Positions 14,113 to 40,651 of a stretch of DNA of 64,000 nucleotides are shown piece by piece. The notes under the pieces were generated by a model. The model had not been told where the DNA came from, did no database searches, and was given only the letters and a program-made list of their open reading frames with translations. The number at the start of each line of letters is the position of its first letter. Position 1 is the stretch's first letter. The position numbers and the translations under genes are program-made. The stretch comes from Verrucomicrobiaceae bacterium (lineage in GTDB: Bacteria; Verrucomicrobiota; Verrucomicrobiia; Verrucomicrobiales; Verrucomicrobiaceae): positions 1-64,000 of the forward strand of contig JAEUHN010000054.1 of NCBI GenBank assembly GCA_016795365.1, read 5' to 3'.

Positions 14113-14138
14113 GTAGGCAGGAGGATTGGAGTTGGAGA

Positions 14139-14154
14139 AGCAGCTAGTGAGCCA
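14139..14154 (-). promoter_or_regulatory. Candidate sigma-54 promoter of biuH
   Basis: Minus-strand TGGCTCACTAGCTGCT has GG and GC correctly spaced and 14 of 16 consensus matches. The predicted start near 14128 gives a leader of about 16 nt to the ATG at 14112 and would exclude the ATG at 14160. Confidence 0.45.
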
Positions 14155-14223
14155 GAACAAAGCGACCCGGCGGTAACCAGCCGCCGGATCGCCTCAACCA
14201 TGCATCAACCTAGCAAAAAGAAT

Positions 14224-15810: not shown

Positions 15811-15841
15811 GGGGTGTGTGGGTGTGGTGTTGAAAAGGAGA

Positions 15842-16513: not shown

Positions 16514-16531
16514 GGCAGGTGTCAGGCTGGG

Positions 16532-16547
16532 TGCTGATGTGATGCCA
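16532..16547 (-). promoter_or_regulatory. Weak sigma-54-like site upstream of the second isochorismatase-like gene
   Basis: Minus-strand TGGCATCACATCAGCA has a good -24 half (TGGCAT) and GC at the right distance, but a poor -12 half (CAGCA). The predicted start near 16521 leaves about 8 nt to the ATG. Confidence 0.25.
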
Positions 16548-16551
16548 GGAG

Positions 16552-17481: not shown

Positions 17482-17521
17482 TGGAGTGGGAGTGGTGTTG
17501 GGGTTGACAACTGCCACTGAT

Positions 17522-17537
17522 TGCAGCGTCGATGCCA
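17522..17537 (-). promoter_or_regulatory. Candidate sigma-54 promoter of the outer-membrane protein gene
   Basis: Minus-strand TGGCATCGACGCTGCA matches the consensus at 14 of 16 positions with correct GG/GC spacing. The predicted start near 17511 gives a leader of about 30 nt. It would be the first promoter of the nitrogen island. Confidence 0.45.
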
Positions 17538-17590
17538 GGGTGCTCCGCAAACACTGCACCCCTTGATTTGCATAGGCTCCAGCTTGGCAT

Positions 17591-17640
17591 GCCCCATCGT
17601 GTGATGGGGCCGATGCTGTTGCATGTGTTGCACAGCAACA
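17591..17640. other. Two adjacent hairpins in the divergent spacer between the outer-membrane protein and ECF genes
   Basis: The first is a perfect 8-bp GC-rich stem with a 4-base loop (GCCCCATC-GTGT-GATGGGGC, 17591-17610). The second is TGTTGC...GCAACA (17617-17640) with an inner TGTG-ttg-CACA. The spacer (17482-17767) has no gene. The hairpins could be operators for either direction. The loops do not match the ACGR loops of the guanidine-II riboswitch. Confidence 0.4.
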
Positions 17641-17767
17641 CAGACGCAACACCGCGAATACCACCACCTTTTCGCATGTAGGTGATGGTTGTATTTGCAA
17701 TGCCGCAATCAATAGGCTCATCCTGTTCAGGCATGTCATCGCAGTCTGCGACCGCACCGCTTCGTGC

Positions 17768-18475
17768 ATGAAATTCCCCTCCACCAATTGGGCGCAAATA
17801 GCGATGGCCACCTTGAATGGCGATTCCTCCAGCTATCAGGCGCTTTCCAAGCTCTGCTCAGATTACCGCGAACCCCTGGTGAGGTTCCTATGCGTTCGCG
17901 GCCATGATCGAAACACCAGTGAGGACATGGTGCAGGAGTTCTTTCTGAAGCTGCTCCAATCGCGTGCGTGGAAGCGAGCCGATCAGGCCCATGGACGATT
18001 CCGCACCTTCCTGCTGGCCTCGCTCTTGCATGTGACCGATCACGCACGGCAGAAGGCAGGAGCGCTGAAGCGTGGCGGCGGTATCGAGCACGACAGCCTG
18101 GATGCGCTGGCTGAAGACGGCATCGAACAGGCAGAGATAACGCCAGAGATCGGGCGACGCTTCGATAGCGAGTGGGCATTCGAGTTGATCAAGCAATCGC
18201 TGAAAGCCCTCGCCGCTGAATTTGACTCCGAGGGCCGCAGCGGTGAGTTCGACGCGCTGCGTTGCTTTCTACCGTGCGCGGATTTGCCCCCTTCGTATGA
18301 GGACTTGTCCGCGCGGCTCGGACAGCCGGTTCCAGCGTTGAAGACCAAGGTGCATCGGCTGCGAGTGCGTTTCCGTGAGCTGCTGCGCAGCGCCGTCGCG
18401 CGCACGGTGAGCGCGCCGCATGAGGTGGACGAGGAACTGGCGTATCTGCGCAGTTTGCTTGTAGGAGGAAATTGA
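17768..18475 (+). CDS. ECF-type RNA polymerase sigma factor paired with a Ser/Thr kinase
   Basis: This 235-residue sigma-70-like protein has region 2 (residues about 25-85: YREPLVRFLCVRGHDRNTSEDMVQEFFLKLL and GRFRTFLLASL) and region 4 (about 170-215: PSYEDLSARLGQPVPALKTKVHRLRVRFREL). It belongs to the group of ECF factors in planctomycetes and verrucomicrobia that lie beside Hanks-type kinases and have no anti-sigma factor. Phosphorylation by the kinase encoded 33 nt downstream is the likely input. Target genes are unknown; the PEP-CTERM gene downstream is a candidate. Confidence 0.9.
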   Translation: MKFPSTNWAQIAMATLNGDSSSYQALSKLCSDYREPLVRFLCVRGHDRNTSEDMVQEFFLKLLQSRAWKRADQAHGRFRTFLLASLLHVTDHARQKAGALKRGGGIEHDSLDALAEDGIEQAEITPEIGRRFDSEWAFELIKQSLKALAAEFDSEGRSGEFDALRCFLPCADLPPSYEDLSARLGQPVPALKTKVHRLRVRFRELLRSAVARTVSAPHEVDEELAYLRSLLVGGN

Positions 18476-18508
18476 AACTCAGGGGCGAAAACACGGAAGA
18501 TAGTTTGC

Positions 18509-21382: not shown

Positions 21383-21584
21383 ATCGCTGCACGTCCTCAG
21401 CGTGCCGGACCTGCGCCTCATCGTCGCGCTCACGCCCCCGCTGCCGCTGGACCTCCGCCGCGTGGTGTGGAGCCGGGACGGCAGCAAACTCTGGGCGATG
21501 GGCGTGGCCGGTCGCATCTTCGAGTGGGATCTCGCGGTATTGCAGGGGGAGATGAAGAGGCTGGGGATGGAGTGGCAGAGGTGA
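21306..21584 (+). pseudogene. Displaced C-terminal propeller blade of the frameshifted kinase
   Basis: In the +1 frame relative to the kinase this stretch reads STSAYGTGCNGFSPDSQRLV...VVWSRDGSKLWAMGVAGR...FEWDLAVLQGEMKRLGMEW and then stops. It supplies the blade that the kinase frame loses. It has no start of its own and makes sense only as the original end of the kinase. Confidence 0.75.
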
Positions 21585-21691
21585 ACTCGACACTGCGGTG
21601 TAAAATTTCCCGCACATTTTTGAAACCCGCCGCCGCGGAGTCGGAAGAACAGAGAGCCGCCCCATTTTTCGCGCCTCCACTCTTCCACTCT

Positions 21692-24460: not shown

Positions 24461-24473
24461 GCTCGTTCACACG

Positions 24474-25949
24474 TCAGCCAGCACTCTCGCGTGCATCCGG
24501 AAAGCGTCGATAGATGCGGCTGCGATTCACGCCGAGGAGGCGCGCGGCTTCCGCGACGTTGCCGTGCGCTTGCTCCAGCGCTCGCTGGATCAGGGCTTGC
24601 TCGGCGGCTTCGAGATTCAGCGGGATGTCTGTCGTTGAACTAGCAGGCTTGGAAGACTGAATCACGGGCGGTGGCAGGGATGACGAACCGCCGATCAGTT
24701 GCACATGCTCGCGCTTGATGGGCTTGCCGCCGCTCATGATGAGGGCGCGTTCGATGATGTTCTTCAGCTCGCGCACGTTGCCGGGAAAAGCGTAGCTGCT
24801 CAGCACGGCGAGCGCTTCCTTCGTGAGAGCTGGCGGAGTGAGGCCCATCTCGCTGGCGAAGACACCGAGGAAATGCTCGGCAAGCAGCGGCAGGTCTTCG
24901 GGACGCGAGCGTAGTGGTGGCGTCTCGACGGTGAAGCGTGCGAGGCGATAGAACAAGTCCTGGCGGAACTCACCGCTCGCGATCTTGCTCGTGATGTCGG
25001 CATTCGTTGCACTGACCACGCGCACATCGACGTGACGGGACTGCGCTGCGCCGACAGGCGTGATCATCCCATCTTCGAGCACGCGCAGCAGCTTGGCCTG
25101 CAACGATGCTGGCATGTCGCCGATCTCATCGAGAAACAACGTGCCGCCGTCCGCGAGTTCGAAGAAGCCTTTGCGATCCGTCGTCGCGCCGGTGAACGCG
25201 CCTTTCGTGTGGCCGAAGAACATCGACTCCATCAGCTCACTTGGAATCGCCACGCAGTTCACCGGCACGAAGGGTCCCTCCGCACGGGGGCTGTGATGAT
25301 GCACGGCGCGCGCGACTAGTTCCTTGCCAGTGCCGCTTTCGCCCGTAATGAGCACCGCTGTGTTGCTGAAGAGTTGCAGCCGCTCGATGTCTGCGAGGAT
25401 GCGTTTCAAATGCGTGCTCTGCCCCACAAAACCCGCCAAGCCCCAGCGCTGCGCCTCACGTGAAGCCAGCGATGACAAACGCTGCGTCGCCTTGTCGCGA
25501 GCGTGCTCGGCTTCGCGGCGCTTGGTCATCTCAGCTTCGAGTTCCGCATTGCGATCGCGCAACTCGCGCGTGAGACGGCTTAGCTTCAAATGCGTGGCCA
25601 CACGCGTGATGACCTCCTCCGTTTGAAACGGCTTCACGATGTAATCCACCGCACCGACGCGGAAGCCTTTCAACACGTTCTCGGTTTCGTTTTTGCTCGT
25701 GATGAAGATCACCGGCACATCCGCTGTGTCGGGCTCGGCCTTTAAGGTGCGACACACATAGAAGCCATCGTGGCCCGGCATCATCACATCGAGTAGCAAC
25801 AGATCCGGCTTGGCCTTCATTGCGAGCGTGATCGCTTCCTTGCCGTTGTTCACCGCGAGCACTTCATAGCCCTGCGGTTCCAGCACGCGCGTGAGCAGGT
25901 CCAGACTGGCCGCCGTATCGTCAGCGATGAGGATGCGGCCTTGTTTCAT
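24474..25949 (-). CDS. Sigma-54-dependent response regulator (NtrC family)
   Basis: This 491-residue regulator has an N-terminal receiver domain (residues 4-120; phospho-acceptor in DLLLLDVMMPG), a coiled-coil linker (about 130-165, RNAELEAEMTKRREAEHARDK), a central AAA+ domain (about 172-400) with Walker A GESGTGKE, GAFTGA loop and Walker B GGTLFLDEIGD, and a C-terminal Fis-type helix-turn-helix (EAARLLGVNRSRIYRRF). It should activate sigma-54 promoters after phosphorylation. The start at 25949 overlaps the stop of the hybrid kinase by ATGA, so the kinase is its likely partner. The end is 14 nt from the convergent end of the PEP-CTERM gene. Confidence 0.93.
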   Translation of the reverse strand: MKQGRILIADDTAASLDLLTRVLEPQGYEVLAVNNGKEAITLAMKAKPDLLLLDVMMPGHDGFYVCRTLKAEPDTADVPVIFITSKNETENVLKGFRVGAVDYIVKPFQTEEVITRVATHLKLSRLTRELRDRNAELEAEMTKRREAEHARDKATQRLSSLASREAQRWGLAGFVGQSTHLKRILADIERLQLFSNTAVLITGESGTGKELVARAVHHHSPRAEGPFVPVNCVAIPSELMESMFFGHTKGAFTGATTDRKGFFELADGGTLFLDEIGDMPASLQAKLLRVLEDGMITPVGAAQSRHVDVRVVSATNADITSKIASGEFRQDLFYRLARFTVETPPLRSRPEDLPLLAEHFLGVFASEMGLTPPALTKEALAVLSSYAFPGNVRELKNIIERALIMSGGKPIKREHVQLIGGSSSLPPPVIQSSKPASSTTDIPLNLEAAEQALIQRALEQAHGNVAEAARLLGVNRSRIYRRFPDARESAG

Positions 25950-28429
25950 GCGGTGTGAACTTGGGCGAGGATGCGCTGGATGGTCTTCATGTCGTAGCTC
26001 GCCAGGAAGCCACGCAAGTGCTGTGCCAGTCTCGCCTCGGCGCTGCCCATCTGTTCCAGCTCGACGAGGCATGCCTTCAACACGGTGGCGGAGTGAAGTT
26101 CCGCGGCGAGTGACAAGCGCGCGGCAAGATCCTTCGGCAACGACACCTCGCGCAGGTCCACGGTCTTCTCAGGCAGTTCATCTGCGATGACGGATTCTTT
26201 GAACTCAAAACGAACACCGAGCAGTTGGCGCAGGCAGCCATAGATGCGCTCGGCACGGAACGGCTTCGACACGAAGTCATCGCACCCAGCCTTCAGACAC
26301 TCATCGCGCTGATGCAGCAACGCCGACGCAGACGTGGCGACAATCTTCACCTCGCTGAACTCCGCCGCGATACGTCGTGTCGCCTCGATGCCATCGAACT
26401 CGGGCATACGCACATCCATGAAGACAATCTGGGGCCGCGACACGCGCACGACCTCCACCGCCTGACGACCGTGCTCCGCGAGCACGACCTCGCACCCAAC
26501 CAAGGTGAGCATCGTGGCCAGCACCTCGCGATTCTCCGCGATGTCATCCACCACCAGCGCGCGCACACGTTCGCCATCGGCCAGCCGACTGATCTCGCGC
26601 ACCGGCGTCACGGTCGTCGTCTTCACACTGCGCGGCAGCTTCAGCACCACATCGAATCGCGAGCCCACGCCGAGCGACGACTCCGCAGCGATCGTGCCGC
26701 CGATGATGTCGAGCTGTCGCTTCGCAATCGCCAGCCCCAGCCCCGTGCCGCCTTCGCGCCGAGCTTCTGCGCCTTGCTGAAACGGATCGAAGATCTTCGG
26801 CAGCACCTCCGACTTGATGCCCACGCCGGTGTCTTCCACTTCAAACCGCCACTCGTCCTCGTCATTCAATTTCGCCCGCAGCACCACACGCCCGCGCTCG
26901 GTGAACTTCACCGCGTTGCCCAGCAGATTGATCAAGACTTGGCGCAGCTTGCCTTCGTCACCATGCACCAGCAGCGGCCCCTCGGGAGCTTCGAGCCGCA
27001 GGCCGAGTTGCTTCTCCTCGCAACGATGCTGGAACATGGCCATCACCTCCTGCAGCAGCGCCGCCAGATCAAAGTCCGTGCTTTCCACTTCCATGCGGCC
27101 CGCATCGATCTTCGACAGATCGAGGATCTCGTTGATCAGATGCAGCAAGTGATCACCGCTGCGCTGAATCGTCGCCACCGCATCGCGATGAAACGACGGC
27201 AGCGCGCCGTCGCGCGCGAGGATCTGCGCGTAGCCGAGGATGGCATTCATCGGCGTGCGGATCTCATGACTCATACTCGCGAGGAACTCCGACTTCGCGC
27301 GGTTCGCAGCCTCCGCAGATGCCTCCGCCGCCTTGCGCACCGCCACTTCCTCCACCAGCGCCTGCTGCGATCGAGCCAGCTCTGCCGAGCGCCGTGCATC
27401 GGTCCAAAGATAAGCGGCGAGCAACCAGGTGATGATCAGGCCCGCGCCAGTCGTGATCCACGGTAGCCAGTCCGCACGCGTGCCGCGGAAGGCTTTTGTT
27501 GCTTCAAACAAAAGTGACCAACGACGACCTGCGACGATCACTTCGCTTCGCCAGCTAGCCATTCCGGCGAGTCGCTCGGTGGGCTGGCGATACAGCAGCG
27601 CATCGTTCGCACCATCAGAGACTGTGATCGCCACGCCCGGATCACCGGTGCGTTGCAGCGACTTCTCGATCAGATCGCCAATGCGGAACACCGCAGTCGC
27701 AAAGCCCGTGAGCATCTGCCTGCGCTCTTCCACCGTCTGCGGATCACCGCGATACAAGGGCGAGAACACCACGAATCCCTTCTGCGTATCCGTCTCCTGC
27801 GCGAGACGAATCGGTGCCGTAGCCGTGGGCTCGCCGGTGTCGCGCGCCTTCTCCAGCGCTTCACGACGTCGCGGCTCCGATGAAACATCGAAGCCCAGCG
27901 CCGGCGCGTTGAGCTTCAAGCTCTCCACATAAAACACCGGAAAGTATTCCGCTCGGGTCGAAGCATGCACGCGCATCCCTTCCATCTTCTCCTCGGTAAC
28001 GAAGTAGTCTGTGAAGCCCTCGGCCTGTGCACGCTGCTCCCACTTCGTCCGATCCTCGCCCCGCACCCGCGGATCCCACGCCAGCGCATGCAACTCTGGC
28101 TGCCGCTCCAGTGCCGGGCTTACGAACACCCGAAACTCTTCCCGCGACACTTCGCCACGCGCCTGAAACAAGCTCTCGATGCCATGCAACACCTCCATCG
28201 AGCGCAGAATCTGCGCGCGAATGATCTCAGCCCGATCCTGACCCACCCGTTTGATTTCTTCCTCCCATGCCGTCTCCCGTGTCTGCCAAAACAGCGCTGC
28301 CAGCGCCATCGATGCAACTGCCCCAAGCACCAGCGCCGAGATGGCGGGCGCTTTCACGCTATCGAGTGAGAGTTTGCGTGTGCGTGTGCGGAACAATCGT
28401 AGCCTCCGTGGAAGCACTCCACATGCCAA
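25946..28429 (-). CDS. CHASE-domain hybrid sensor histidine kinase
   Basis: This 827-residue protein has a first membrane helix (about residues 28-48), a periplasmic CHASE domain (about 60-280; FRVFVSPALERQPELHALAW and PRVRGEDR), a second helix (about 312-332), a short coiled coil, HisKA with SHEIRTPMNAILG, HATPase with NLLGNAVKF, DTGVGI and GGTGLGLAI, a receiver domain (MDVRMPEFDG), and a C-terminal Hpt-like helical region without a clear phospho-histidine motif. CHASE domains sense small extracellular ligands. It is coupled by ATGA to a sigma-54 activator. The start is uncertain: ATG at 28429, or a GTG at 28357 just before the first helix. Confidence 0.9.
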   Translation of the reverse strand: MACGVLPRRLRLFRTRTRKLSLDSVKAPAISALVLGAVASMALAALFWQTRETAWEEEIKRVGQDRAEIIRAQILRSMEVLHGIESLFQARGEVSREEFRVFVSPALERQPELHALAWDPRVRGEDRTKWEQRAQAEGFTDYFVTEEKMEGMRVHASTRAEYFPVFYVESLKLNAPALGFDVSSEPRRREALEKARDTGEPTATAPIRLAQETDTQKGFVVFSPLYRGDPQTVEERRQMLTGFATAVFRIGDLIEKSLQRTGDPGVAITVSDGANDALLYRQPTERLAGMASWRSEVIVAGRRWSLLFEATKAFRGTRADWLPWITTGAGLIITWLLAAYLWTDARRSAELARSQQALVEEVAVRKAAEASAEAANRAKSEFLASMSHEIRTPMNAILGYAQILARDGALPSFHRDAVATIQRSGDHLLHLINEILDLSKIDAGRMEVESTDFDLAALLQEVMAMFQHRCEEKQLGLRLEAPEGPLLVHGDEGKLRQVLINLLGNAVKFTERGRVVLRAKLNDEDEWRFEVEDTGVGIKSEVLPKIFDPFQQGAEARREGGTGLGLAIAKRQLDIIGGTIAAESSLGVGSRFDVVLKLPRSVKTTTVTPVREISRLADGERVRALVVDDIAENREVLATMLTLVGCEVVLAEHGRQAVEVVRVSRPQIVFMDVRMPEFDGIEATRRIAAEFSEVKIVATSASALLHQRDECLKAGCDDFVSKPFRAERIYGCLRQLLGVRFEFKESVIADELPEKTVDLREVSLPKDLAARLSLAAELHSATVLKACLVELEQMGSAEARLAQHLRGFLASYDMKTIQRILAQVHTA

Positions 28430-28605
28430 GGCGATCAGCGGTGTTCTTCTCAGGCGGTCCTGGCTGTTGAGGAGTTCCCCAGATTCGGAGCGCCACCATC
28501 CAGAACTTTGTCCGGTTTATCTGTGGTGAAGTGAATCTATGGGAGAAACCCACGCCTCAACTTTTTCCGATCCTTTGCACCAAACCTGCTTAGCTTGTTC
28601 GCAGT

Positions 28606-28917
28606 ATGACCCCAGGCGAAGTCTTTCCTCTCGAAACCGATGACCTCATCCAGGCCAATGCAGGGATGGAGACAAAGGTCATCACCGTCGCCAACACCGG
28701 CGACCGACCGATCCAGGTCGGCAGTCATTATCACTTCTTCGAGACTAACACCGCGCTGCGCTTCGATCGCGCGGCAGCGCGTGGGTTTCGACTCAACATC
28801 CCTGCGGGTAATGCGGTGCGCTTCGAGCCCGGCGATGAACGCGAGGTGGAACTTGTCGTGCTCGCCGGGCAGCGCGTGGTGCATGGATTCAATGATCTTG
28901 TCGCGGGTGCACTTTGA
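28606..28917 (+). CDS. ureB: Urease beta subunit
   Basis: This 103-residue protein matches UreB from end to end: [71 protein letters not shown] and [10 protein letters not shown]. It is one of the three structural subunits of the cytosolic nickel enzyme urease. It normally lies between ureA and ureC. Here the upstream neighbour is a divergent histidine kinase, no ureA is found, and ureC begins about 10 kb downstream. No strong ribosome-binding site or promoter was recognised in the 176-bp upstream spacer. Confidence 0.95.
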
Positions 28918-28928
28918 GAGCTTCACGG

Positions 28929-31760
28929 CTATTGGATGCCAGCTTCGGTCAGTTCGTGATGTAGCGCGGTCAGGTTCCATCGTGCGACCGTGCCGAGTGC
29001 TGTATGAACGATTAGTGTGGATCCATCCGCATCGAAGACGAGATGACCTTGTCCTAGCCAGCCAACGTGGGCGGGGAGTGTGAGGCGAAGTTCGTCTTCG
29101 AGCGTGATGGGATCGCGGAGGCGGATGTGATCATCGCCAAGCGTGGCGAGGTAGCGCGCGTCGGGGCTGAAGGCCATGCTCTCAAGCGGAAGATCGCCAG
29201 CGGGGAGTTTTTCCTCCGTCCAGTCGCGCGTGCGGAAGGCGTAGCCGTGCTTGCCGGTGTTCACCAGCAGGCGCTGACCATCGGGACTGATGATAGCCTG
29301 GATGATGGTGTCCCTCTCGCAAAGGGTGCGGAGGAGTTTTCCATCCGAGAGGCTCCAGATGCGTGATCCTGTTTTCAGATAGCTGCTGGTGAGCAGCCAG
29401 GTGTGATCGTGGCTTAGCTGCGTGGCGAGATTGCCTGGCTCTCTCACTTGCAGCGTGCGGCCTGTCTGCGGCCACAAGACGATGAACTTGCCGGTGCTGT
29501 TGTTGCTGAGCACAAGCGCCTGTCCGTCGGCGCTCACCATGCGCAAAATGCAGCCGTAGTCTGGATGCCGCGGGGTGGCGGGGCCAATCGTGAGGCGACC
29601 TTGTGCATCGCGGGAAAGTGCGCGGCTGGTGAGCTGCTCATCCCAGCCGCAGGTCCACAGGTGATCCGGCGAAAAGTGAGCGCTGCGCCATGAATTGGGA
29701 TGGCCTGTCAGTTCGGTGACGAGACGCGCGCTCGCCAAGTCCCACAAGCGCATGCTGGCCTCGTCGATGACGGCAGCGATGCTGCCATCCGCACTGAGCG
29801 CGGCGGAGCCGAAGTTCTCCGTGTGCGGTTCTTCTTCGGGCGGCGCGAGCACTTGCAGAATGGGCGAGGACGTGACGGGATAAACATCAGTGCCGCCATC
29901 TTCCGTCGCGCCGAAGAACTGCGTGCCCGTCTCATTCCACCACACGCGAGTGTAGGGCTCATGGGGCAGGTCGTGGCGCACGAGTTCCTGGCCGCGAGCG
30001 ACGTGCCACAGGCGCACATGCACATCGCGTGAGATGGACATCAGCTCCTGGCTGCGTGGTCGGAAGCTCACGCGGATCGGGTAGGCCTCGTGTCCGCTGA
30101 GACGGCGGTGGCGCTTGCCCTTCGCATCCCAGATGTAGATGAAGTAATCATCGCAGCCCGTGGCGATGAGTTCGCTGCTCCAGTCCACACTGCCGAGCGC
30201 GTCCTCGTGCGAGCAGGTGGCGATGACTTTGCCATCGGCGAGATTCACGAGGCGCAGGTCTTTGCTCTTCGGCGCGGCGATGGCGATGCGCTCGCCGTGA
30301 TCATCCAGCTTCATCAAAGAGCCGGGCTTTTGATTGGGCAGGCGCGCGACTTCCTGACCACTCATGACATCGCGCACGATGACCGTGTTGCCTTCGATGA
30401 CGGCGACGCGTTTGCCGTCGGCACTGCGTGTGAGGTCGGGTGCTGTCGCTTTGGCAATGCGGGTGCGAGTGCCGAGTTCCGGCAGCGCGAGACAGGCGAT
30501 GATTTCATTGCGAATCTCAGCCGAGGGCGCGATGGCCCATGCACGATGAAGCGCGGCGAGTGCCTCCGTGCGACTGCCTGCGATGCGCCGCTGCCTGAGC
30601 GAGCGCGCCTCCGAGATGAGCGAGGTGCGATGCTCAAGCTGCTGCTTATGCCGCGCAAAGGCGAGCGAACCGACGATCATCGCCACGATGAGCAAGGCGG
30701 AGAAAACGATCATCGCTGCTAGAGCCGGATAGCGTCGCGTCCAGCGCCAGGCTTTGCCGATGAAGCCGAGCGGGCGCGCGACGATGGGCCTGCCCTCAAT
30801 GAAGCGCAGCAAATCATCAGCCACAGCATCGGCGGTGGCGTAGCGACCTTCGGGTTGTTTGCTCAGGCACTTGAGGCAGATCGTTTCCAGATCGCGCGGC
30901 ACGCTGGGGTTTAGCCTGCGCGGCGAGAGCGGGTCATTTTCACGAAGCTGCACCAGGATCGCATCGAGCGTGGGTCCCTGGAACGGCGGGCGTCCGGTGA
31001 GCAGATGGTAAAGCAGCGCGCCGAGACCATAGACATCCGTGCGGGCATCCGCTTTGCCTGCGAGAGCTTGTTCGGGTGCTGCGTAGCCGGGCGAACCGAG
31101 CGATTGTCCCGTGCGCGTGAGTTCAGCAGCGCGGCGGTTTGTGGTCGTGCTGTTGTTGAGCACTCGTGCGATGCCGAAGTCGGTGATGCGCGGCGCTTCG
31201 TCGGCATCGAGCAGGATATTCGAGGGCTTCAGGTCGCGATGGAGCACGCCGTTGTCGTGCGCGTGTTGCAGCGCGGTGGCCACGCTTTGCACACAGCGCG
31301 CAGCCAGCATCGCCTCCATGGGATGCTCGCGCACGGCCTGCTCCAGGCTGTGGCCCGCGATGTGATCCATGCTGAACCACGGCACGCCCTCGTCCTCGCC
31401 CACCTCATGAATGCCGACGATGCCCGGATGCTGCAGCCGCGCCGCCGCCTGCGCCTCGCGCTGAAAGCGTTCGCGCTCCTCCGCGCTGGCGAACTGCGCA
31501 CGCAGCAGCACCTTCACCGCCACCGTGCGATCCAGACCCGTCTGCCGCGCGCGATACACCACGCCCATGCCGCCACGACCGATCTCCTCGAACAACTCCA
31601 GTCCGCCGAAGGTCGTCCACGGCACTTCGTGCTCATCCTCCGGCGGCGGTGCGCTGGAGAAGGAGACCGCCATCAAACAGCGCGGGCAATGACCTGCCGG
31701 AGATCCAACGGGCAGCGGTGACTGACACCGGGGACATGAGGTTGTGGGAGACACTTCCAT
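28929..31760 (-). CDS. Transmembrane Ser/Thr protein kinase with WD-like propeller
   Basis: This 943-residue protein has an N-terminal zinc-ribbon-like CPRC...CPRC (residues 9-29), a Hanks kinase domain (about 45-315) with GRGGMGVVYRA, VAVKVL, HRDLKPSN, DFG and APE, a membrane helix (about 335-355, YPALAAMIVFSALLIVAMIV), and a C-terminal propeller of WD-like blades (for example FSPDARYLATLGDDHIRLRD). It is a paralogue of the kinase at 18509-21382 and keeps the complete C-terminus. It lies 24 nt after an ECF sigma gene, the same pairing as at 17.8 kb. The start at 31760 (MEVSPTTSCPRC) was preferred to 31781 by similarity of the zinc-ribbon start. It ends 11 nt from the stop of ureB. Confidence 0.9.
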   Translation of the reverse strand: MEVSPTTSCPRCQSPLPVGSPAGHCPRCLMAVSFSSAPPPEDEHEVPWTTFGGLELFEEIGRGGMGVVYRARQTGLDRTVAVKVLLRAQFASAEERERFQREAQAAARLQHPGIVGIHEVGEDEGVPWFSMDHIAGHSLEQAVREHPMEAMLAARCVQSVATALQHAHDNGVLHRDLKPSNILLDADEAPRITDFGIARVLNNSTTTNRRAAELTRTGQSLGSPGYAAPEQALAGKADARTDVYGLGALLYHLLTGRPPFQGPTLDAILVQLRENDPLSPRRLNPSVPRDLETICLKCLSKQPEGRYATADAVADDLLRFIEGRPIVARPLGFIGKAWRWTRRYPALAAMIVFSALLIVAMIVGSLAFARHKQQLEHRTSLISEARSLRQRRIAGSRTEALAALHRAWAIAPSAEIRNEIIACLALPELGTRTRIAKATAPDLTRSADGKRVAVIEGNTVIVRDVMSGQEVARLPNQKPGSLMKLDDHGERIAIAAPKSKDLRLVNLADGKVIATCSHEDALGSVDWSSELIATGCDDYFIYIWDAKGKRHRRLSGHEAYPIRVSFRPRSQELMSISRDVHVRLWHVARGQELVRHDLPHEPYTRVWWNETGTQFFGATEDGGTDVYPVTSSPILQVLAPPEEEPHTENFGSAALSADGSIAAVIDEASMRLWDLASARLVTELTGHPNSWRSAHFSPDHLWTCGWDEQLTSRALSRDAQGRLTIGPATPRHPDYGCILRMVSADGQALVLSNNSTGKFIVLWPQTGRTLQVREPGNLATQLSHDHTWLLTSSYLKTGSRIWSLSDGKLLRTLCERDTIIQAIISPDGQRLLVNTGKHGYAFRTRDWTEEKLPAGDLPLESMAFSPDARYLATLGDDHIRLRDPITLEDELRLTLPAHVGWLGQGHLVFDADGSTLIVHTALGTVARWNLTALHHELTEAGIQ

Positions 31761-31784
31761 TTTCACCCGGAGGAGGTTCATGGA

Positions 31785-32525
31785 TTACAGGGAATTCGCC
31801 AGATGCTGGAGTTCTTCATCGAGTCGTGATGCATCGGCCAGTCCTGCCGCGACCTCGCTCCGCACCGTCTGGCGATAGCGCTGGCGCAGGCGATGCACGG
31901 CTACGGCCACGGCGTTCTCGCGCATCCGCAGCGCTTCGGACACGACTGCATACTCGCCCAGCTCCGGCTCGCGGGAGAGGAAGGGACTGAGCCGATCAAA
32001 CAGCCGGCCCTTCCCTTCGGCGTGGCATTCCTCGCGCAGATGCGTGAGCGCGGCGTCGAGCACGAGCAAGGCCCATCGCCGTTCGAAGAGGCGCTCCGGT
32101 GATTCGTCCGTGGCCGGCTCTGCCCCGAACCACTGCTCCGCCTGAGCCAGCTCGATGGACATGGGCACGGAGGTGCCGCCACGCTTCTGCGCCGTGTCGC
32201 GCTCGTGCTCCTTGATGAGGTGCGACTTCACCAACGTGAGCAGCCAGGTGCTGAAGCGCGCCTCGCGCCGCTCGACACGCGACAGCCAGTCCTTCTCAAG
32301 CAGCTTCGCGAAGAAGCCCTGAGTGAGATCTTGCGCGTCCTCCGGCCCGTTCCCTTGCCGACGAATGAAGGCATAAACCGGATACCAGTAGGCGCGGCAA
32401 AACTGCTCCATCGCCTTCGCGCCCTGATCGCCCTTGCCACCCGCCTGCAGGATCATGGTCCAGCGCGTCGTCATGAAACGCGGCGACGAATCGTGTCTGT
32501 GGCTGATGGGAAAAGCGGCGGGCAT
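31785..32525 (-). CDS. ECF-type sigma factor paired with a Ser/Thr kinase
   Basis: This 246-residue protein contains SPRFMTTRWTMILQAGG at the start, region 2 (FCRAYWYPVYAFIRRQGNGPEDAQDLTQGFFAKLL and RFSTWLLTLVKSHLI), and region 4 (LGEYAVVSEALRMRENAVAVAVHRLRQRYR). The TTRWTMIL start and QDLTQGFF motif are typical of the kinase-linked ECF factors of planctomycetes and verrucomicrobia. No anti-sigma gene is nearby, so the kinase encoded 24 nt downstream is the likely control. Possible starts are 32525 (MPAAFPISHRH) and 32474 (MTTRW); the first was chosen because homologues usually have 15-20 residues before TTRW. Confidence 0.9.
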   Translation of the reverse strand: MPAAFPISHRHDSSPRFMTTRWTMILQAGGKGDQGAKAMEQFCRAYWYPVYAFIRRQGNGPEDAQDLTQGFFAKLLEKDWLSRVERREARFSTWLLTLVKSHLIKEHERDTAQKRGGTSVPMSIELAQAEQWFGAEPATDESPERLFERRWALLVLDAALTHLREECHAEGKGRLFDRLSPFLSREPELGEYAVVSEALRMRENAVAVAVHRLRQRYRQTVRSEVAAGLADASRLDEELQHLANSL

Positions 32526-32579
32526 GAAGACGACAAATCTCTGGCATTCCGATACGTCCAGATCAAACCCCATCCTTGC

Positions 32580-32633
32580 CTCAGCACGACCGGAGTGGCG
32601 AAGTTTTACTGTGTGCGGATCACTGGGCCGTGA
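32580..32633 (+). pseudogene. C-terminal remnant of a secreted protein
   Basis: In this frame the last residues before a stop read LSTTGVAKFYCVRITGP. The BNR/GH74-like protein at 36253-38853 ends [16 protein letters not shown], with identical codons for most of the AKFY, V, I and G positions and the stop. No coding sequence for the rest of such a protein precedes it; the divergent ECF gene begins 55 bp upstream. It appears to be the tail of a lost gene. Confidence 0.6.
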
Positions 32634-32720
32634 AGAGTTGTGCAGACTTCCCGGCTTCGTCAGAGGACTGCACCTCATTTTTCCTGTAATCACGCGCCGT
32701 CAAAACGGTGGAAAGGGTGC

Positions 32721-35700
32721 ATGAGCCGTTTCATCGCCCTTTTTGCCGTTCTGTGTTTTCCTCTTTTTGCCGTGGCGCAGCAGGAGTGGGGGCAGCGTTT
32801 GGATGTGGGGTCGCCGGGGCCGCGGTTTGCGATGGGGATGGCCTATGAGGAGGCGCAGGAGGTGGTGCTGCTCTATGGCGGGGTGGCGTTGAATGCGCCG
32901 CAGAGTTATGTGGGGCCGCTGGATGGCTGGGACCCATCGCGAGTGTATGATCTGTGGAAGTATGACGGCACGCAGTGGACGCAGGTGACGGTCATGGGCT
33001 GGGCTCCGAGTGTGAAGGACCCTTATCTAGTGTGGCACGGGCAGATCGGCCGCGTGCTGCTCCTGGGGCAGAACCGGATCGATCAAAACACCATCGAGAC
33101 CAACAAGATGTGGTCCTTTGTCTTCGACACGCCGAGTTCCGGCCACTGGCAGCTCGAATCGGCCACGGTGCCGGAGTTTGTCCTCGGTGCGGTGTATGAT
33201 CCAGTGCGGCAGATGCTGGTGACGATGGTGGACCCGGACATCTCCGGATCTCAGCCTGCCAAAACCTGGGAGTGGAGCTACTCGACGGGTGTATGGACGG
33301 AGAAAGGCCTGGCGCTGGGTGGCACCCGGGCGGTTTTTTATCCGCCGCTCGGCAAGATCATCTGCGCGGATGAGCTGGCGGACTCCCCGAGCACGCCCGC
33401 CACGGCGGTGACGCGCGTCTATGAATACAACGGCACCTCGTGGACGGAGATGAGCACGGGCGGGCTCGCTCCACCGTTGGGTGCCTATCGTGAAAATGAT
33501 CGCCGCATGGTCTATGATAGCCAGCGCCAGCGGCTCGTGGCCGTGGACAGCACCTCGTCGTATGACTTCGACGGCACCAAGTGGCGGGTGAAAGGCCCGG
33601 CGAACAATTACCCGAACGGCCCCGGCCAGGTGGACGGCCTCATCAGCCGAGGCGGCTTTAAGGCGGTGTATGACAAGAAGCGCGGCGTGGTGGTGCGCTT
33701 CGGCGGCGCGACGACCGTCGGTCCTTCTTCTACCGGCTACTACGCGCCGCAAAACGAGACTTTTGAGCTGAAGCGGTCCACGGGCGCGGGCATCGTGATG
33801 GTGAATCCGAACATCTCCATCTCGGATCCGCTGCTGCGCTGCCGGCATGAGGATCTCGTGCTGCATTTCCTCGTCAGCATCGGGAATGGTGTGAACAGCA
33901 CCGTGGGCATCACCTACCAGTGGTTCAAAGACGGCTCGCCCACGACGATGACGGACCCCACGCGGCCTTACCTGCATGAGCGGTTCAATCTTCAGACAAC
34001 CGATGCCGGTGTGTATTTTGCGCGGGCCACGGATGACTGGGGCTTCCGCGTGGAGTCGAATCCCGTCACCGTCTTTGTGTATGAGCATCCCTCGATCACG
34101 CAGCATCCGCAGGGGCGGCGGCTCATCCCAGGAGACTCCTTTGCGCTGCAAGGTGCCTATACCTCCCAGCTCGGCGCGACGGTGACATGGACAAAGGACG
34201 GCCAAACGATCCCTGGAGCCAACAGCGTGATCTTTGTCAAATCCAACGCCACCGCCGCCGATGCGGGCGAGTATCGCATGCATGTGCAGAGCCTGTGCAA
34301 TGTGGCGCAGACTAATGCGGCCATCATCACCGTCGGGCCGCGCATCGTGAGCCAGCCGGTGTTTCCTGCCACACCGGGCGCGGGTGCCGCGCCGGTGTCC
34401 ATGACCGTCACCGGCGATGGCGCGGGCGCGGTGAGCGGCACTTACCTTTATGGCGCGGACCCCACCGAGCATCCGAACCGCGCCGCGCCGAATGATGTGA
34501 CCACGCCTTTGCCGATGAGCTTCACCTGGCGCTACGAGGGCGTGCCGATCAGCAATGGCGCGAAATACACGATCACGAACAACGCCGTCACCAGCACGCT
34601 GCAAATCAACGCGCCCGACTACGAGGATGAGGGCCGCTACGACTGCCTCGTCACCGATGCGAGCGGCCCGGCTCATGCCAAAGTCACGCAATCGCAGGAG
34701 CTGCTGCTGCATCCGCTCGCGCCGCCCTACATCACTGTTTTGCAGGGCAAAGGACCGGAGCCGCGCAGCTACGGCGGCATGGTCTATGACAGCCAGCGGC
34801 GGCGCACCGTGCTCTTCGGCGGCGAGGCCTACGGCGTGAACCCACGCAGCGGCAATGCCAACCTCGGGAACTACATCTCAAACGACACCTGGGAGTGGGA
34901 CGGGCAGGTGTGGATCAAACGCAATCCCGCCACGCGACCTCCCGCGATGACGCAGTTCGGCATCGCCTACGACAGCGTGCGCGGCCGCACCGTCGTCTTC
35001 GGCGGCTACAAGTATGCGCCGCCAAATTTTCTCAATGGCTCGCAAGTCGTCAGCAACGACGTGTGGGAGTGGGACGGCATCAATTGGACGCAAATCACGC
35101 CGCCAACCTCGCCCACCGCCCGCACGAAGCCCGCGATGTGCTATGACAGCACGCGTGGCGAGGTCCTCATGCTCGGCGGCGGCCTCTTCTCGCCCTCGCC
35201 ACCAGATTTCTACGCGGCCACCAAGCAGCTCTGGGCCTGGAACGGCTCGCAGTGGACGCAGCGCGCCTCCATGCCAAACGGCGGCAGCGGCGCGCCCTAT
35301 GTCGGCGACGAGCATTGCTTTGCCTTCGATGCCGGACGCGGCGTGGCCGTGCTCTTCGGCCCTTTCAGCGACGGCATAAACAATGTGTGGGAATGGGACG
35401 GCGCCGCATGGGCCAGCCGCACGCCACCCTCGGACTTGCGTGTCATGGAAACCCGCCAGAGCCGCTATGCCTTCTACGATCCCGTGCGCCGCCGCGTCGG
35501 ACTGCCCATCGTCAGCAACAATCTATCCCCCAGTGTCGCGCCCAGTCTCACCACCGTGCTCTGGTGGGATGGCACACGCTTCCTGCGCGGCAACAGCAGC
35601 ACCATCGACGACATCGCGGGCACGGTCATCACCGATGGCGTGGAAGCGGGTCCGTTTGGTCAAGGCATCGACCTCGCCGTCTTCGACACGCACCGCCGCT

Positions 35701-36227
35701 GCCTCGTCTGGCACGACTCGCCCCTCAATCCTAGCGCAGGCCCCGCTAACACCCGCGAGATGCATTTCAGCGCAAAGACAAAAACCATCCACCAGCCCGT
35801 CGAGGTCATCTTTGCCGCCGCGCAAAACATCCAGCTCCGCGCCATCCACGCTGGTCAACGTCCGCTGAGCCTGCAGTGGTTCAAAGACGGCAACGGGCTC
35901 ATCGACGACGCCCAGTATGCCGAGGTCACCACGAGCAGACTCACCATCAACAACGCCTCCGCAGCCACCGCCGGCCTCTACACCCTCCGCGCCACCAACG
36001 CGATGAATCAGGTCACCACCGCGCCCATCCGCCTCACGCTGCAAAACGACGGCGTCGGCATGGTCGTGCAAGGTGCCGGCCTCGTTCTGAGCTGGCCCGG
36101 AGCCACCGGCATCCTCGAATTCGCCACCGACCTCGCCGGCCCCTGGACCCCGATCTACGGCATCAGCCCGCCCTACAGCGTGGCGATGGATGAAGCGCGG
36201 CGGTTTTATCGCGTGAGGTATCCGTGA
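32721..36227 (+). CDS. Secreted kelch-repeat / Ig-like mosaic protein
   Basis: This 1168-residue protein has a signal peptide (MSRFIALFAVLCFPLFAVAQ). Kelch-type blades occupy about residues 30-360 and again about 685-1000 (MVYDSQRRRTVLFGGEAYG, TWEWDGQVWIKR, AYDSVRGRTVVFGGY). Ig-like domains lie between them (about 380-680, with YQWFKDGSP and DAGVYFARATD) and at the end (LQWFKDGNGLID, ATAGLYTLRATN). The C-terminus EARRFYRVRYP is shared in form with other secreted proteins here and is not PEP-CTERM. Function is probably adhesion or carbohydrate binding at the surface; no catalytic motif was seen. The start at 32721 was chosen for the signal peptide. It lies 25 nt before the BNR protein gene, so the two are probably co-expressed. 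Confidence 0.85.
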   Translation: MSRFIALFAVLCFPLFAVAQQEWGQRLDVGSPGPRFAMGMAYEEAQEVVLLYGGVALNAPQSYVGPLDGWDPSRVYDLWKYDGTQWTQVTVMGWAPSVKDPYLVWHGQIGRVLLLGQNRIDQNTIETNKMWSFVFDTPSSGHWQLESATVPEFVLGAVYDPVRQMLVTMVDPDISGSQPAKTWEWSYSTGVWTEKGLALGGTRAVFYPPLGKIICADELADSPSTPATAVTRVYEYNGTSWTEMSTGGLAPPLGAYRENDRRMVYDSQRQRLVAVDSTSSYDFDGTKWRVKGPANNYPNGPGQVDGLISRGGFKAVYDKKRGVVVRFGGATTVGPSSTGYYAPQNETFELKRSTGAGIVMVNPNISISDPLLRCRHEDLVLHFLVSIGNGVNSTVGITYQWFKDGSPTTMTDPTRPYLHERFNLQTTDAGVYFARATDDWGFRVESNPVTVFVYEHPSITQHPQGRRLIPGDSFALQGAYTSQLGATVTWTKDGQTIPGANSVIFVKSNATAADAGEYRMHVQSLCNVAQTNAAIITVGPRIVSQPVFPATPGAGAAPVSMTVTGDGAGAVSGTYLYGADPTEHPNRAAPNDVTTPLPMSFTWRYEGVPISNGAKYTITNNAVTSTLQINAPDYEDEGRYDCLVTDASGPAHAKVTQSQELLLHPLAPPYITVLQGKGPEPRSYGGMVYDSQRRRTVLFGGEAYGVNPRSGNANLGNYISNDTWEWDGQVWIKRNPATRPPAMTQFGIAYDSVRGRTVVFGGYKYAPPNFLNGSQVVSNDVWEWDGINWTQITPPTSPTARTKPAMCYDSTRGEVLMLGGGLFSPSPPDFYAATKQLWAWNGSQWTQRASMPNGGSGAPYVGDEHCFAFDAGRGVAVLFGPFSDGINNVWEWDGAAWASRTPPSDLRVMETRQSRYAFYDPVRRRVGLPIVSNNLSPSVAPSLTTVLWWDGTRFLRGNSSTIDDIAGTVITDGVEAGPFGQGIDLAVFDTHRRCLVWHDSPLNPSAGPANTREMHFSAKTKTIHQPVEVIFAAAQNIQLRAIHAGQRPLSLQWFKDGNGLIDDAQYAEVTTSRLTINNASAATAGLYTLRATNAMNQVTTAPIRLTLQNDGVGMVVQGAGLVLSWPGATGILEFATDLAGPWTPIYGISPPYSVAMDEARRFYRVRYP

Positions 36228-36252
36228 TAGAGTAGCGGACCCTTCACCTCCG

Positions 36253-38853
36253 ATGAAAACACTTCTGGCACTCGTCGCACTTGTCTCGGCCTTGGCTCAC
36301 GCTGCCTCGACGGTGGGTGTGCCGCAGCCGGGGGTGTTTCGCCAGACGGATCTGGATGCGGGCGGATGGTTGACGGGGTTTGCGTCGCATTCGTCGGGGA
36401 GGCTGTATGCGCGGACGGATGTGGGCGGGGTGTATCGCAGTGATGATCAGGGCGGGAGCTGGCGGTTTCTCTCGGGAGACATGACGAGCTCGGCGGGGCT
36501 GTTTGTGCAGGGGCTGGCGGTGGGAGAGGGATCGGCGGACACTGTGTTTCAGGCGGTGGGGACGAGCTATACCTCGACGGAGGCGAATCGCGGTGTGTGG
36601 CGCACGACGGATGGTGGCTCGACGTGGACGCAGGTGCTCAGCGGCGTGCTTTTTTCCGGCAATGACGATCTGCGCTGGCAGGGCGAGTGCCTGGCTATCA
36701 CTCCAGGATCGGGCGATGCGGAAATCTTTGCCATCAGTCGAAAAAATGGCCTCTGGCGCAGCACGACGGGCGGTGGCGCGGGGACGTGGAGCAAGCAGGG
36801 CGGCACGTTGTTTGATGGCATGATCGGACATGTGGTGCACATGCATCCGGCGTTTCCGAATGACATCTTCGTCGGCGGTGTGAAGGACACGGGCACGAGC
36901 GCACTCTACAAAGGCACACGCGGCAGCGGTGGCAGCATCGCCTGGAGCGCGGTGACGGTGAACGCGGCGACGACCTCCGTGACGCGGCTGGCGAGGCTGC
37001 CGAGCGGCGTGATGTTTGCCGCGGTGCAGGACGGAACGAGCAATCGCTTCTACAAATCGGACGCGACAGGCGCGACATGGACGAATATCACCTCGACAGT
37101 GCTCGGCGGGCTCACGGCGAATGGTCCGGTGGGCATGTGTCATGTGCTGCGTGATGGCGTGACGATTGTGCTGGGCTGGATCGGCGGCCCGACGCGCAAA
37201 AGCACGAACGGCGGCACCTCGTGGAGCACGCTGCCGCTCACGATCACAGGCACGCGTCCCGCAGCGATGCTCACGAGCGACACGAGCCCCGGATGGTCGC
37301 GCGGCTCGCTGCATCAGGACCCGCTGGATGCGAACCGCTGGTATTTGCCGAATGGTTTTGGCCCCTTCGTGAGCACAGATGCCGGATCGACCGTGAGCTA
37401 CATGACGCGCGGCATCGGTGAAGTCGTGACGTGGAAGCCCTCGTGGCATCCAAATGACCCGCAGCGTGTCTATATGCCAGTGGCGGACTTGATCGGCTTC
37501 ATCGCCACCGATGGCAGCGAGACGGGCCTCGCGCCTCGGAATCCGCGCCGCAGCCTGCCGGTGAGTGGTGGCAATGTGGGCATGACTTACGCCATCGAGG
37601 CGCTGGTAGGGCCGGTGACGGGAAATGCAGCGCCGAAGGTGTATTTCGTCGGCGGATCGTTCTTTGGTCCCAACACGGGCCGCGCCTCCATCGTGACGAC
37701 GAGCGACGATGGCGTAAGCTGGTCGCTGGTGCATGTGGCAGGCGTCACGGGCACCGGTTTGCCCGCCGGCAGCGAAATCGTGAGCGGTTGCGTGGCACCG
37801 GATGATGCGAATGAGATCCTCGTGGCTGTGCATGACACCGCGAACACAAACTCCGGCATCTACCGCAGCACGAATGGCGGCGTGGCCTTCACGAAATCGA
37901 CCGGCGTCCCCGCAGGCGGCAACTGGGGCGATGAGTTCAGCCACTTCGTCTTCCTCGAAGCCGATGCGGGCAATGCGTCGCGACGTTTTGCGTGGTTGAA
38001 TGGTGTCGGTTTCCTCATCTCGAATGATCGCGGCGTGACCTGGGCCAGCGCGGGCCATTCCAGCGGCGGCCCCAGCAACACGAAGCTCTACGACTGGAAC
38101 TCCTGGGGCTACTTTGTCCGCGATCACGCCACGGGCCGCCTGTGGTTCGGCGGCATGAACGGCCACCTCGGCCTCGCCTACTCGACGAACAACGGCACGA
38201 ACTGGACCTACCTGGACACGCCGTTCTCAAACACCGGCTTCTCCGAGGTGCGTGCCATTGATGCGCACGACGGGCAGGTGCTGGTGTGCGCGAAACGCTT
38301 TGGCGACACCGCCTTCAAAATCTACTACTCGAACGACAACGGTGCCGTGTGGCACGAATGCACGAAGTCTGGCCATCGCCTGCCCAACACGACCTACGTC
38401 GCGCTGAATCCGCATCAACCCGGCCACTTTTGGGTGGCCACAAACGGCCGCTCGTATGCGCGATTCACACCGGGAGCCTACGGCGCCTGGCAGCAGGAAA
38501 ACTTCACCGCGCTCATGCTGAACGATCCCGCCCTCTCCTCCGCCACCGCCGATCCCGATGGTGACGGTCAAAGCAACGACTTCGAGTTCACCGCCGGTCT
38601 CTCGCCGCTCGATCCGCAGTCACGCTTCGTGCAGGCGATGCAAAACGTCCCCGGCCAGCCTGCGCAGATGCGCCTGCAACTTTCACCACGTCTCGCCGGG
38701 CGCACTTACACCGTCGAAAGCAGTCCCACGCTGTCCGGCTGGCAGCCGCTGACGAGTTTCACCACGAGCGATGTCGGAAACGTGCGCACCATCACCGACC
38801 TGAACGCTACAGGCGCGGCGAAGTTTTACCGCGTGAGGATCACGGGGCCTTGA
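36253..38853 (+). CDS. Secreted BNR/Asp-box propeller protein, xyloglucanase (GH74)-like
   Basis: This 866-residue protein has a signal peptide ([18 protein letters not shown]) and then [34 protein letters not shown], very like the start of GH74 xyloglucanases, in which the Asp of RTD(I/V)GG is catalytic. Asp-box motifs ([40 protein letters not shown]) recur through a seven-bladed-type propeller. The C-terminus has a thrombospondin-3-like [13 protein letters not shown] calcium motif and ends [14 protein letters not shown]74 activity is plausible, but other BNR proteins share the fold. It follows the kelch gene by 25 nt and precedes ureC by 40 nt with no functional relation to urease. Confidence 0.78.
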
Positions 38854-38865
38854 TGGGGGAGTCGG

Positions 38866-38882
38866 GCACGCTTCGTGCTTTT
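38866..38882 (+). terminator. Short hairpin with T-run between the BNR protein gene and ureC
   Basis: GCACG-CTT-CGTGC followed by TTTT is a small rho-independent-type terminator 12 nt after the stop at 38853. The same bases, read as GGGCACGCTTCGTGCT (38864-38879), also resemble a sigma-54 promoter with correct GG/GC spacing, but its start would fall only about 4 nt before the ureC ATG. The terminator reading is simpler. Confidence 0.4.
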
Positions 38883-38893
38883 CGGATTCCGAA

Positions 38894-40651
38894 ATGGCAC
38901 TCACACTATCTCGCAGGCAATACGCGGAACTCTTTGGCCCCACGGTCGGTGATCGTGTGCGGCTCGCGGACACGGAACTCATCGTCGAGGTCGAGCGCGA
39001 TCTAATCGCGGAAGGCGGCGGCTACGGGAACGAAGTGAAGTTCGGCGGTGGCAAGGTCATCCGCGATGGCATGGGGCAGTCGCCGCTCTCGCTCGATGCT
39101 GAGTCGCTCGATCTCGTGATCACGAACGCGCTGCTGATGGATGCGGAGTTTGGCATCATCAAATGCGACATCGGCATCAAATACGGTCGCATCGTCGGCA
39201 TCGGCCACGCGGGCAATCCGTGCATCCAGAGCGGCATCGGTTCGGTGTTTGCTGGGGCAGATGGAAAGCTCAATCCCATGATCATCGGCGCAGGCACGGA
39301 AGTCATTGCCGGTGAAGGCTGCATCGTCACTGCGGGCGGGATCGACACTCATATTCACTTCATTTGTCCGCAGCAGATCGAGCACGCGCTCGCGAGTGGT
39401 TTGACCACGATGATCGGGGGCGGCACTGGACCGGCGACGGGCACGTATGCAACGACGTGCACGCCCGGCATCTGGAATATGGCGCGCATGTTGGAGGCCA
39501 GCGATGCCTTCGCAATGAACCTCGGTTTCCTCGGCAAAGGCAACTGTGCCACGCCCGAACCGCTGCGTGAGCAGGTCAATGCGGGTGCCATCGGCCTGAA
39601 GCTCCACGAGGACTGGGGCACCACGCCGAGCGCGATCAACACCTGCCTCTGTGTCGCGGATGAACTTGATGTGCAGGTCGCGATTCACACCGACACGCTC
39701 AACGAATCCGGCTTTGTCGAAGACACGATCGCTGCCTTCAAGGATCGCACCATTCACACTTACCATTCCGAAGGAGCAGGCGGTGGTCACGCGCCGGACA
39801 TCATCAAGGTCTGCGGCTTCGGCAACGTGCTGCCGTCATCCACGAACCCAACGCGGCCCTTCACCGTGAATACGATCGACGAGCATCTCGACATGCTCAT
39901 GGTCTGCCACCATCTCGACTCGCGCATCCCCGAGGACGTGGCCTTTGCCGAGAGCCGTATCCGCCCGCAGACCATTGCGGCTGAGGATCGCCTGCATGAC
40001 CTCGGCGTGATCTCCATGATCTCCAGCGACAGCCAGGCCATGGGCCGCGTGGGCGAAGTCATCACGCGCTGCTGGCAGACCGCGCACAAGATGAAGGTGC
40101 AGTTCGGCACGCTCACGGGCGACCGTCCTGCCGACAACTTCCGCGCGCTGCGCTACCTCTCCAAATACACGATCAACCCCGCGCTCGCCCACGGCATCGC
40201 GCACGAAGTGGGCTCGCTTGGCATCGGCAAGATCGCCGATCTCGTCGTGTGGAAACCCGCGTTCTTTGGCGTGAAGCCGGAACTCGTCTTGAAGAGCGGC
40301 TTCATCGCCTGTGCCAACATGGGCGACCCGAACGCCTCCATCCCCACGCCGCAACCGACAATGTATCGCCCACAGTTCGGCTCCTTCGCCAAGGCGCTCT
40401 CGCAGACCAGCTTCACCTTCGTCAGTCAGTCCTCCATCGACAACGGCACCATCGACAAGCTCGCGCTCAGCAAGCGCATCAGCGCTGTCAAAGGCTGCCG
40501 CACGGTCGGGAAGAAGGACATGAAGTTCAACGACTCCATGGGCAAGATCGAGGTCGATCCCGAGACCTACGTCGTGCGCTACGAAGGCGAAGAACTCACC
40601 TGCGAACCCGCTACCGTGCTGCCGTTGGCGCAGCGGTATTTCTTGTTCTAG
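38894..40651 (+). CDS. ureC: Urease alpha subunit
   Basis: This 585-residue catalytic subunit hydrolyses urea with two nickel ions. All active-site residues align with Klebsiella urease at a constant offset of 19: H153 and H155 (DTHIHFICP), carbamylated K236 (GLKLHEDWG), H265 (VAIHTDTLN), H291 ([11 protein letters not shown]), flap C338 and H339 (MVCHHLD), and D379 ([10 protein letters not shown]). The extra length is N-terminal and internal and does not disturb motifs. It opens the ureC-E-F-G-D run. Unusually, its immediate upstream neighbour is a secreted BNR protein instead of ureB, which lies at 28606. Confidence 0.98.

Follow-up and report, generated by a model that had tools for sequence, protein, structure and literature searches.

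The locus raises the question of why the last codons of a large protein should stand beside a divergent ECF sigma factor gene with no gene body in front of them, and how they came to be there. The window (the whole 64,000-nucleotide stretch analyzed) holds a plus-strand frame that ends ...LSTTGVAKFYCVRITGP followed by a stop codon at 32631-32633. The features around it are given below.

32577..32633, plus strand: the stump, very probably the last ~17 codons and stop of a BNR gene formerly before Kelch (genome-wide match, pattern uniqueness, shuffles, junction in sister genome G001)
36253..38853, plus strand: intact BNR gene, 866 aa, starting 25 bp past Kelch (Pfam; tail match to the stump)
32721..36227, plus strand: Kelch/Ig-domain protein gene, 1168 aa (91% amino acid identity to the G001 ortholog)
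31785..32525, minus strand: ECF sigma factor gene, divergent from the stump (likely start ATG 32525, by eye; domain search; tree)
28929..31760, minus strand: Ser/Thr kinase gene with a WD40-like propeller (the open frame reaches 31781, the listed start, which is probably too early; ATG 31760 agrees better with the homologs, by eye)
32526..32576, no strand: junction DNA between the ECF start and the stump (32490-32582 compared with 10 targets, 200 shuffles each)

We conclude with high confidence that what remains at 32577-32633 is the 3' end, presumably without function now, of a BNR-propeller gene that once lay directly upstream of Kelch and whose body was lost in the window's lineage. This reading is based on the sequence match, synteny with G001, the lack of a detectable body and a urease operon that, among the genomes examined, is split only here.

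The intact counterpart of the stump is the BNR gene that ends at 38853, 6.2 kb 3' of it. Its product matched the Pfam model Sortilin-Vps10 above cut-off (8.6e-11) and three BNR models below theirs, and from the appearance of its N-terminus it is probably secreted. When the stump was searched as DNA against the whole 6.74-Mb genome (55 contigs), it matched this gene over 45 bp at 82% (E=1.5e-5), and the next other place in the genome had an E of only 1.18. Scanning the same 6.74 Mb for a degenerate version of the tail, with as many as 3 mismatches tolerated, gave exactly 2 matches. Local alignment of the 57-bp tail scored 50 against the window's BNR gene and 60 against that of G001; in 1000 mononucleotide shuffles per comparison the scores never exceeded 28 and 30, respectively, which confirms that the tail is genuine and not a chance resemblance. 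A protein search of the genome with the last 71 residues of the intact BNR gave 17 hits with E no higher than 10. Besides the gene itself, these were the stump (E=0.4; 72% over 18 residues) and 15 others that were weaker or partial, the best of them 33% over 64 residues with E=3e-5. The stump is thus inconspicuous by protein alone, and it is distinct by DNA and by position. The initial annotation had described a 16-residue tail matching the end of the BNR protein about 6 kb away. The match and the homologous tail both hold, but the string it quoted, 'GVAKFYCVRITGP', has 13 residues, and the homology begins at 32577-32579 and spans about 17.

G001 belongs to the same genus as the window's genome and is assembled in 370 contigs at 87% completeness. 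Its contig C48 (L051; L066 when reversed) shows BNR similarity at 154-1090, followed by 102 bp and then by Kelch, from 1193. Window positions 32579-36227, comprising stump, spacer and the whole of Kelch, aligned to C48 as a single block at 90.3% identity, and the part without any Kelch codon (32579-32720, stump plus spacer) still matched the G001 junction at 72% with E=1.7e-15. It follows from this one-block alignment that the stump corresponds to the 3' end of the gene that preceded Kelch in the common ancestor. A related genome in which a gene ends at this junction, directly before the orthologous Kelch, therefore exists, and the suggestion that the tail is the fossil 3' end of an earlier BNR-type gene is borne out by the synteny and the sequence match together; the evidence for the BNR-Kelch junction comes from this one genome. 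The BNR gene of C48 is cut by the contig end, and the first 153 bp (L066:1-153) do not continue it and look like a chimeric assembly end, so that its 5' end and upstream neighbor are out of view.

The tail has no body, as had been claimed. Similarity of 32490-32582 to three BNR sequences was at shuffle level, being equalled by 105, 40 and 60 of 200 shuffles. When the same segment was compared with seven ECF/kinase upstream regions, the best score, to the region upstream of the kinase of L062, was reached by 5 of 200 shuffles. The distance from the ECF ATG at 32525 to the first homologous base is 52 bp, in agreement with the earlier figure of about 55. An open frame of 142 codons, reaching from 32205 to the stop at 32633, might suggest that the tail belongs to a short independent gene, and we regard this as extremely improbable: that frame runs antisense to the ECF gene, BNR similarity is confined to its last ~18 residues, and in G001, the sole relative with this junction, the corresponding tail ends a long BNR gene and not a short one with its own start.

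The stump also appears to have decayed. An arginine follows FY in 7/7 of the BNR tails compared (one of the seven, from L062, comes from a gene split into two frames), and the stump has a cysteine at this place. The stump and the intact window tail each differ from G001 at 10 sites, distributed 4/2/4 over codon positions 1/2/3 in the stump and 1/2/7 in the intact tail; with only 10 changes per tail, the shift is suggestive of decay. Directly 3' of the stump lies a hairpin that would be what is left of the terminator of the lost gene.

32634..32685, plus strand: apparent worn terminator hairpin of the lost gene, followed by a T run (fold; alignment with G001)

The hairpin folds at -15.7 kcal/mol (z -1.67), whereas its equivalent in G001 folds at -34.1 kcal/mol (z -5.65). 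A consensus scan of 28500-39100 returned 1 promoter-like site (33490-33518; 1.6 expected from shuffles) and 9 terminator-like sites (6.5 from shuffles); none of these fell in the stump or in the spacers discussed here, and the hairpin after the stump was not among them. Selective maintenance of the stump, whether as a piece of the ECF promoter or as an insulator or terminator separating the divergent ECF and Kelch transcripts, would fit its position 52-108 bp upstream of the ECF start and the persistence of the hairpin and T run. We consider it unlikely, given the weakening of that hairpin relative to G001, its absence from the terminator scan and the absence from the stump of both sigma-70-type sites and the candidate promoter motif described below. 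We infer instead that the stump is functionless, that its codon changes reflect decay, and that the body was removed by deletion or replacement. Their position immediately before the predicted promoter and start of Kelch would explain why the stump and its worn terminator were retained.

The sequence of events would then be as follows. In the ancestor shared with G001, BNR would have been the gene immediately preceding Kelch/Ig. The lineage of the window would then have lost the BNR promoter, and the body up to ~17 codons before the stop, leaving a breakpoint near 32577 that is now 52 bp from the start of the divergent ECF-kinase operon, with an intact BNR gene behind Kelch. The whole block of kinase, ECF, stump, Kelch and BNR now lies between ureB and ureC.

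The neighboring ECF-kinase pair bears on what removed the body. Near Kelch, G001, G024 and G084 each have an ECF, and G110 has one ~8 kb from a Kelch remnant. These four are 70-87% identical to one another and 55-59% identical to the window ECF. Window and G001 share 59% identity in the ECF and 91% in Kelch. In the tree, the window ECF grouped with that of G010 (96/90), outside the set formed by the G001, G110, G024 and G084 ECFs (100/99). Identity and tree together rule out orthology with the G001 ECF, so the window ECF is not the one that accompanies Kelch in G001. That Kelch-linked ECF is its best match in G001, at 71% DNA identity over 459 bp; the other G001 matches were either weaker or spanned little sequence (55 bp at 78%, 81 bp at 73%). 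The layout in G010 is also divergent, with a large open reading frame facing the ECF and then the kinase. The loci L062 and L064 have no ECF match, and in both a BNR gene is the immediate divergent neighbor of a kinase that shares 56-58% identity with the window kinase, so that kinase and BNR may already have been neighbors before the loss. The order of the ECF, kinase, Kelch and BNR genes varies, with at least four arrangements among the genomes looked at: kinase, one or two small open reading frames, Kelch, ECF in G024 and G084; kinase-BNR at L062 and L064; BNR-Kelch-DUF4091-ECF in G001; and kinase-ECF-stump-Kelch-BNR in the window.

The Kelch and BNR genes themselves are sparsely distributed. 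Among 288 genomes of the order, searched at E 1e-60 with two or three candidates scored per genome, Kelch occurred in 5 and BNR in 8, and both occurred together only in G000 and G001. Of 10 named BNR loci, only L066, which is the same G001 contig C48, also carried Kelch. G001 has a second BNR copy or fragment on contig C88. Both G001 copies end at contig edges, and the possibility that they are two halves of one gene was ruled out by a 309-bp overlap in which they are 91.9% identical. With this extra copy the history of copies is not simple. Over the overlap, the window BNR matches the G001 copy beside Kelch at 291/309 sites and the other copy at 284/309, seven sites fewer. Upstream of the C88 copy lies what is presumably a nitronate monooxygenase-like gene, which had no match in the window's genome at E 1e-5, an empty result that says little. 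The stump and the intact window tail differ at 12/54 sites, and each differs from the G001 tail at 10/54, so the loss and the species split may be of about the same age.

Two side observations concern these genes in other genomes. In G110, L099:9987-10837 on the minus strand carries a 5'-truncated Kelch gene (~residues 885-1168, spread over two frames), preceded by the apparent N-terminus of another protein; this is a second remnant, from a similar kind of event among these genes. In G010, L055:1498-2394 on the minus strand encodes a 298-aa protein with a different N-terminus that has the last ~120 BNR residues in common at 57-59% identity, and the C-terminal part is thus found on different proteins.

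The initial annotation held that the ECF-kinase block had replaced or truncated the earlier gene. A gene was indeed truncated beside the block, and the ECF is not the ortholog of that in G001; that the block itself did the cutting is only one possibility, since a related kinase adjoins BNR at L062 and L064. We see two ways in which the body could have gone, to which we give about equal weight and neither of which we would put at even odds. One is that a single event brought an ECF-kinase operon from another lineage to the side of Kelch and took out the BNR promoter and body. The grouping of the window ECF with that of G010, the fact that its best G001 match is a different ECF, and the shared divergent layout in G010 all speak for this. 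Against it, the kinase may be an old neighbor of BNR, as at L062 and L064, the 5' DNA of the BNR gene has left no trace near the junction, and a missing ECF ortholog in a genome that is 87% complete, as G001 is, counts as weak evidence. The other is that the kinase, and perhaps the ECF, already stood beside BNR-Kelch, and that, after a tandem duplication of BNR-Kelch, the body of the first BNR gene and the second Kelch gene disappeared. The change from BNR-Kelch in G001 to stump-Kelch-BNR in the window is the expected outcome of such an event, the intact window BNR is closer to the Kelch-side G001 copy, and the kinase-BNR neighborhood at L062 and L064 fits as well. The stump and the intact tail, however, are no closer to each other than either is to G001; no second remnant was found around the intact BNR gene, where neither the 38854-38893 segment, in which a trace of Kelch would be expected, nor 36228-36252 matched anything above shuffles; and the position of the ECF is left unexplained.

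We also considered that two BNR copies had been mis-joined in assembly, for which the two copies in the G001 assembly, both cut by contig ends, could be cited. We hold this to be very improbable: 12 of the 54 sites separate the stump from the intact tail, the stump continues into the orthologous spacer and Kelch, and a mis-join would not create a diverged copy. Loss of the body in the window's lineage, probably by one of the two routes above, is the reading that we retain.

The block containing the stump interrupts the urease genes.

28606..28917, plus strand: ureB, left of the block
38894..40651, plus strand: ureC, right of the block

A ureC gene was present in 18 of 57 genomes surveyed. In the other 17, ureB lies just upstream in every case (17/17), within ~90 bp in 16 and at ~500 bp in G005 (L073); only in the window's genome are the two split, by 9976 bases as compared with 3 bases in G001. 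We conclude from this adjacency that the split is derived in the window's lineage. It had been suggested that the stump would help to date the break in the urease operon, but it is the adjacent ureB-ureC in G001 and 16 other genomes that dates it. The window also has ~15.7 kb upstream of ureB (12884-28605) that is missing from G001 and G008, in which the genes to its left, which we take to be urea-transport-like, lie 80-100 bp from ureB. This segment contains another ECF-kinase pair (17768-21382) and a large open reading frame (21467-24460). The G001 site where Kelch and its ECF lie around what are presumably a DUF4091-like gene and a symporter has a counterpart on the window's contig at 95-101 kb, without Kelch, BNR or ECF.

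ureC begins 40 bp past the BNR gene, and the hairpin between them is weak (-14.9 kcal/mol, z -1.46). This spacer, 38854-38893, contains the short hairpin GGGCACGCTTCGTGC followed by TTTT, which bears on readthrough into ureC. An Rfam scan of 28000-39500 gave a single match, 5_ureB_sRNA at 39058-39386 on the minus strand, inside ureC. Among the papers listed by a literature search on urease operons, no title was relevant.

Between the stump and Kelch we noted the motif TTYYTGTAAT-N16-GGTGGAA, which we predict to be a promoter, with a second candidate copy before the kinase.

32681..32713, plus strand: candidate ECF-type promoter of Kelch (TTCCTGTAAT-N16-GGTGGAA), just 3' of the stump (prediction only)
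31761..31793, minus strand: second candidate copy, before the kinase and overlapping the ECF stop codon (prediction only)

The strict motif, with spacings of 13-18 allowed, occurred 4 times in 374 kb of loci, always with the same spacing, and always directly before Kelch (the window, G024 and G084) or before the gene after BNR (L065). With a weight matrix built from seven instances, non-seed sites turned up ahead of the kinase gene (window, L064, G038) and ahead of BNR (G057). Above a score of 15 there were 18 sites, seven of them seeds, versus 6 in reversed sequences, of which the best scored 18.0; of six non-seed sites above 18.0, two lay elsewhere (L102, 22.0; L100, 18.4). Genome-wide, with up to 2 mismatches and on both strands, there was no excess, the counts being 3, 3 and 10 in G000, G001 and G024 against 12, 10 and 14 in reversed controls; the top-scoring sites alone carry information. 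No site of this kind precedes the window BNR, and this, together with the gaps of 25 bp and 40 bp and the weak hairpin, suggests that ureC may be read from the Kelch promoter.

These observations would be compatible with a shuffling verrucomicrobial module composed of a single ECF and a single WD40-type Ser/Thr kinase, together with one or two large proteins that are probably secreted, with the structural genes and the kinase under a common predicted promoter, TGTAAT-N16-GGTGGA. Such a module would have moved into the urease operon, where ureC may use the ECF promoter before Kelch. We offer this tentatively, as a possibility on which we would not rely. The split urease and the four or more gene orders make the module more worth testing than the stump, since it comes with a predicted promoter and ureC is possibly under its control. 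Among the by-products of the analysis, the freshest is this candidate promoter motif of the ECF, kinase, BNR and Kelch genes, which we do not claim as new to the literature.

Among known systems, the ECF-kinase pair is reminiscent of group ECF43. ECF43 genes are described as lying beside a Hanks-type kinase gene, and the DxxD of region 2.2 as typically replaced by uncharged residues, with a phospho-accepting threonine (PMC13147305, PMC8103513). The window ECF resembles this group in having a protein-kinase open reading frame directly downstream. Unlike ECF43, it retains DxxD (EDAQDLTQ), and activation by phosphorylation at that site is therefore not implied. Literature searches for 'FYRVR' and for ECF and kinase jointly in Planctomycetes and Verrucomicrobia together gave no match.

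The arrangement of the genes invites comparison with tandem duplication-random loss, a mode of gene-order change that turns A-B into remnant-B-A. Stump-Kelch-BNR conforms to that pattern, and departs from it in that only one of the expected remnants is seen and the position of the ECF is unaccounted for. The stump itself belongs to the general class of 5'-truncated pseudogenes, or gene remnants left by rearrangement. Like other members of this class, it retains only the 3' end in its ancestral place and has an intact homolog elsewhere, and its changed codon, at a position otherwise constant in the tails compared, is suggestive of the decay expected of such a remnant. Nothing fundamental sets it apart from them; it is an ordinary gene remnant of a well-documented kind, unusually short at 57 bp, and it can be identified because the sister genome retains the gene at the same junction. 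It thus provides a documented case in which the parent gene, the ancestral position and the surviving copy of a 57-bp remnant are all identifiable.
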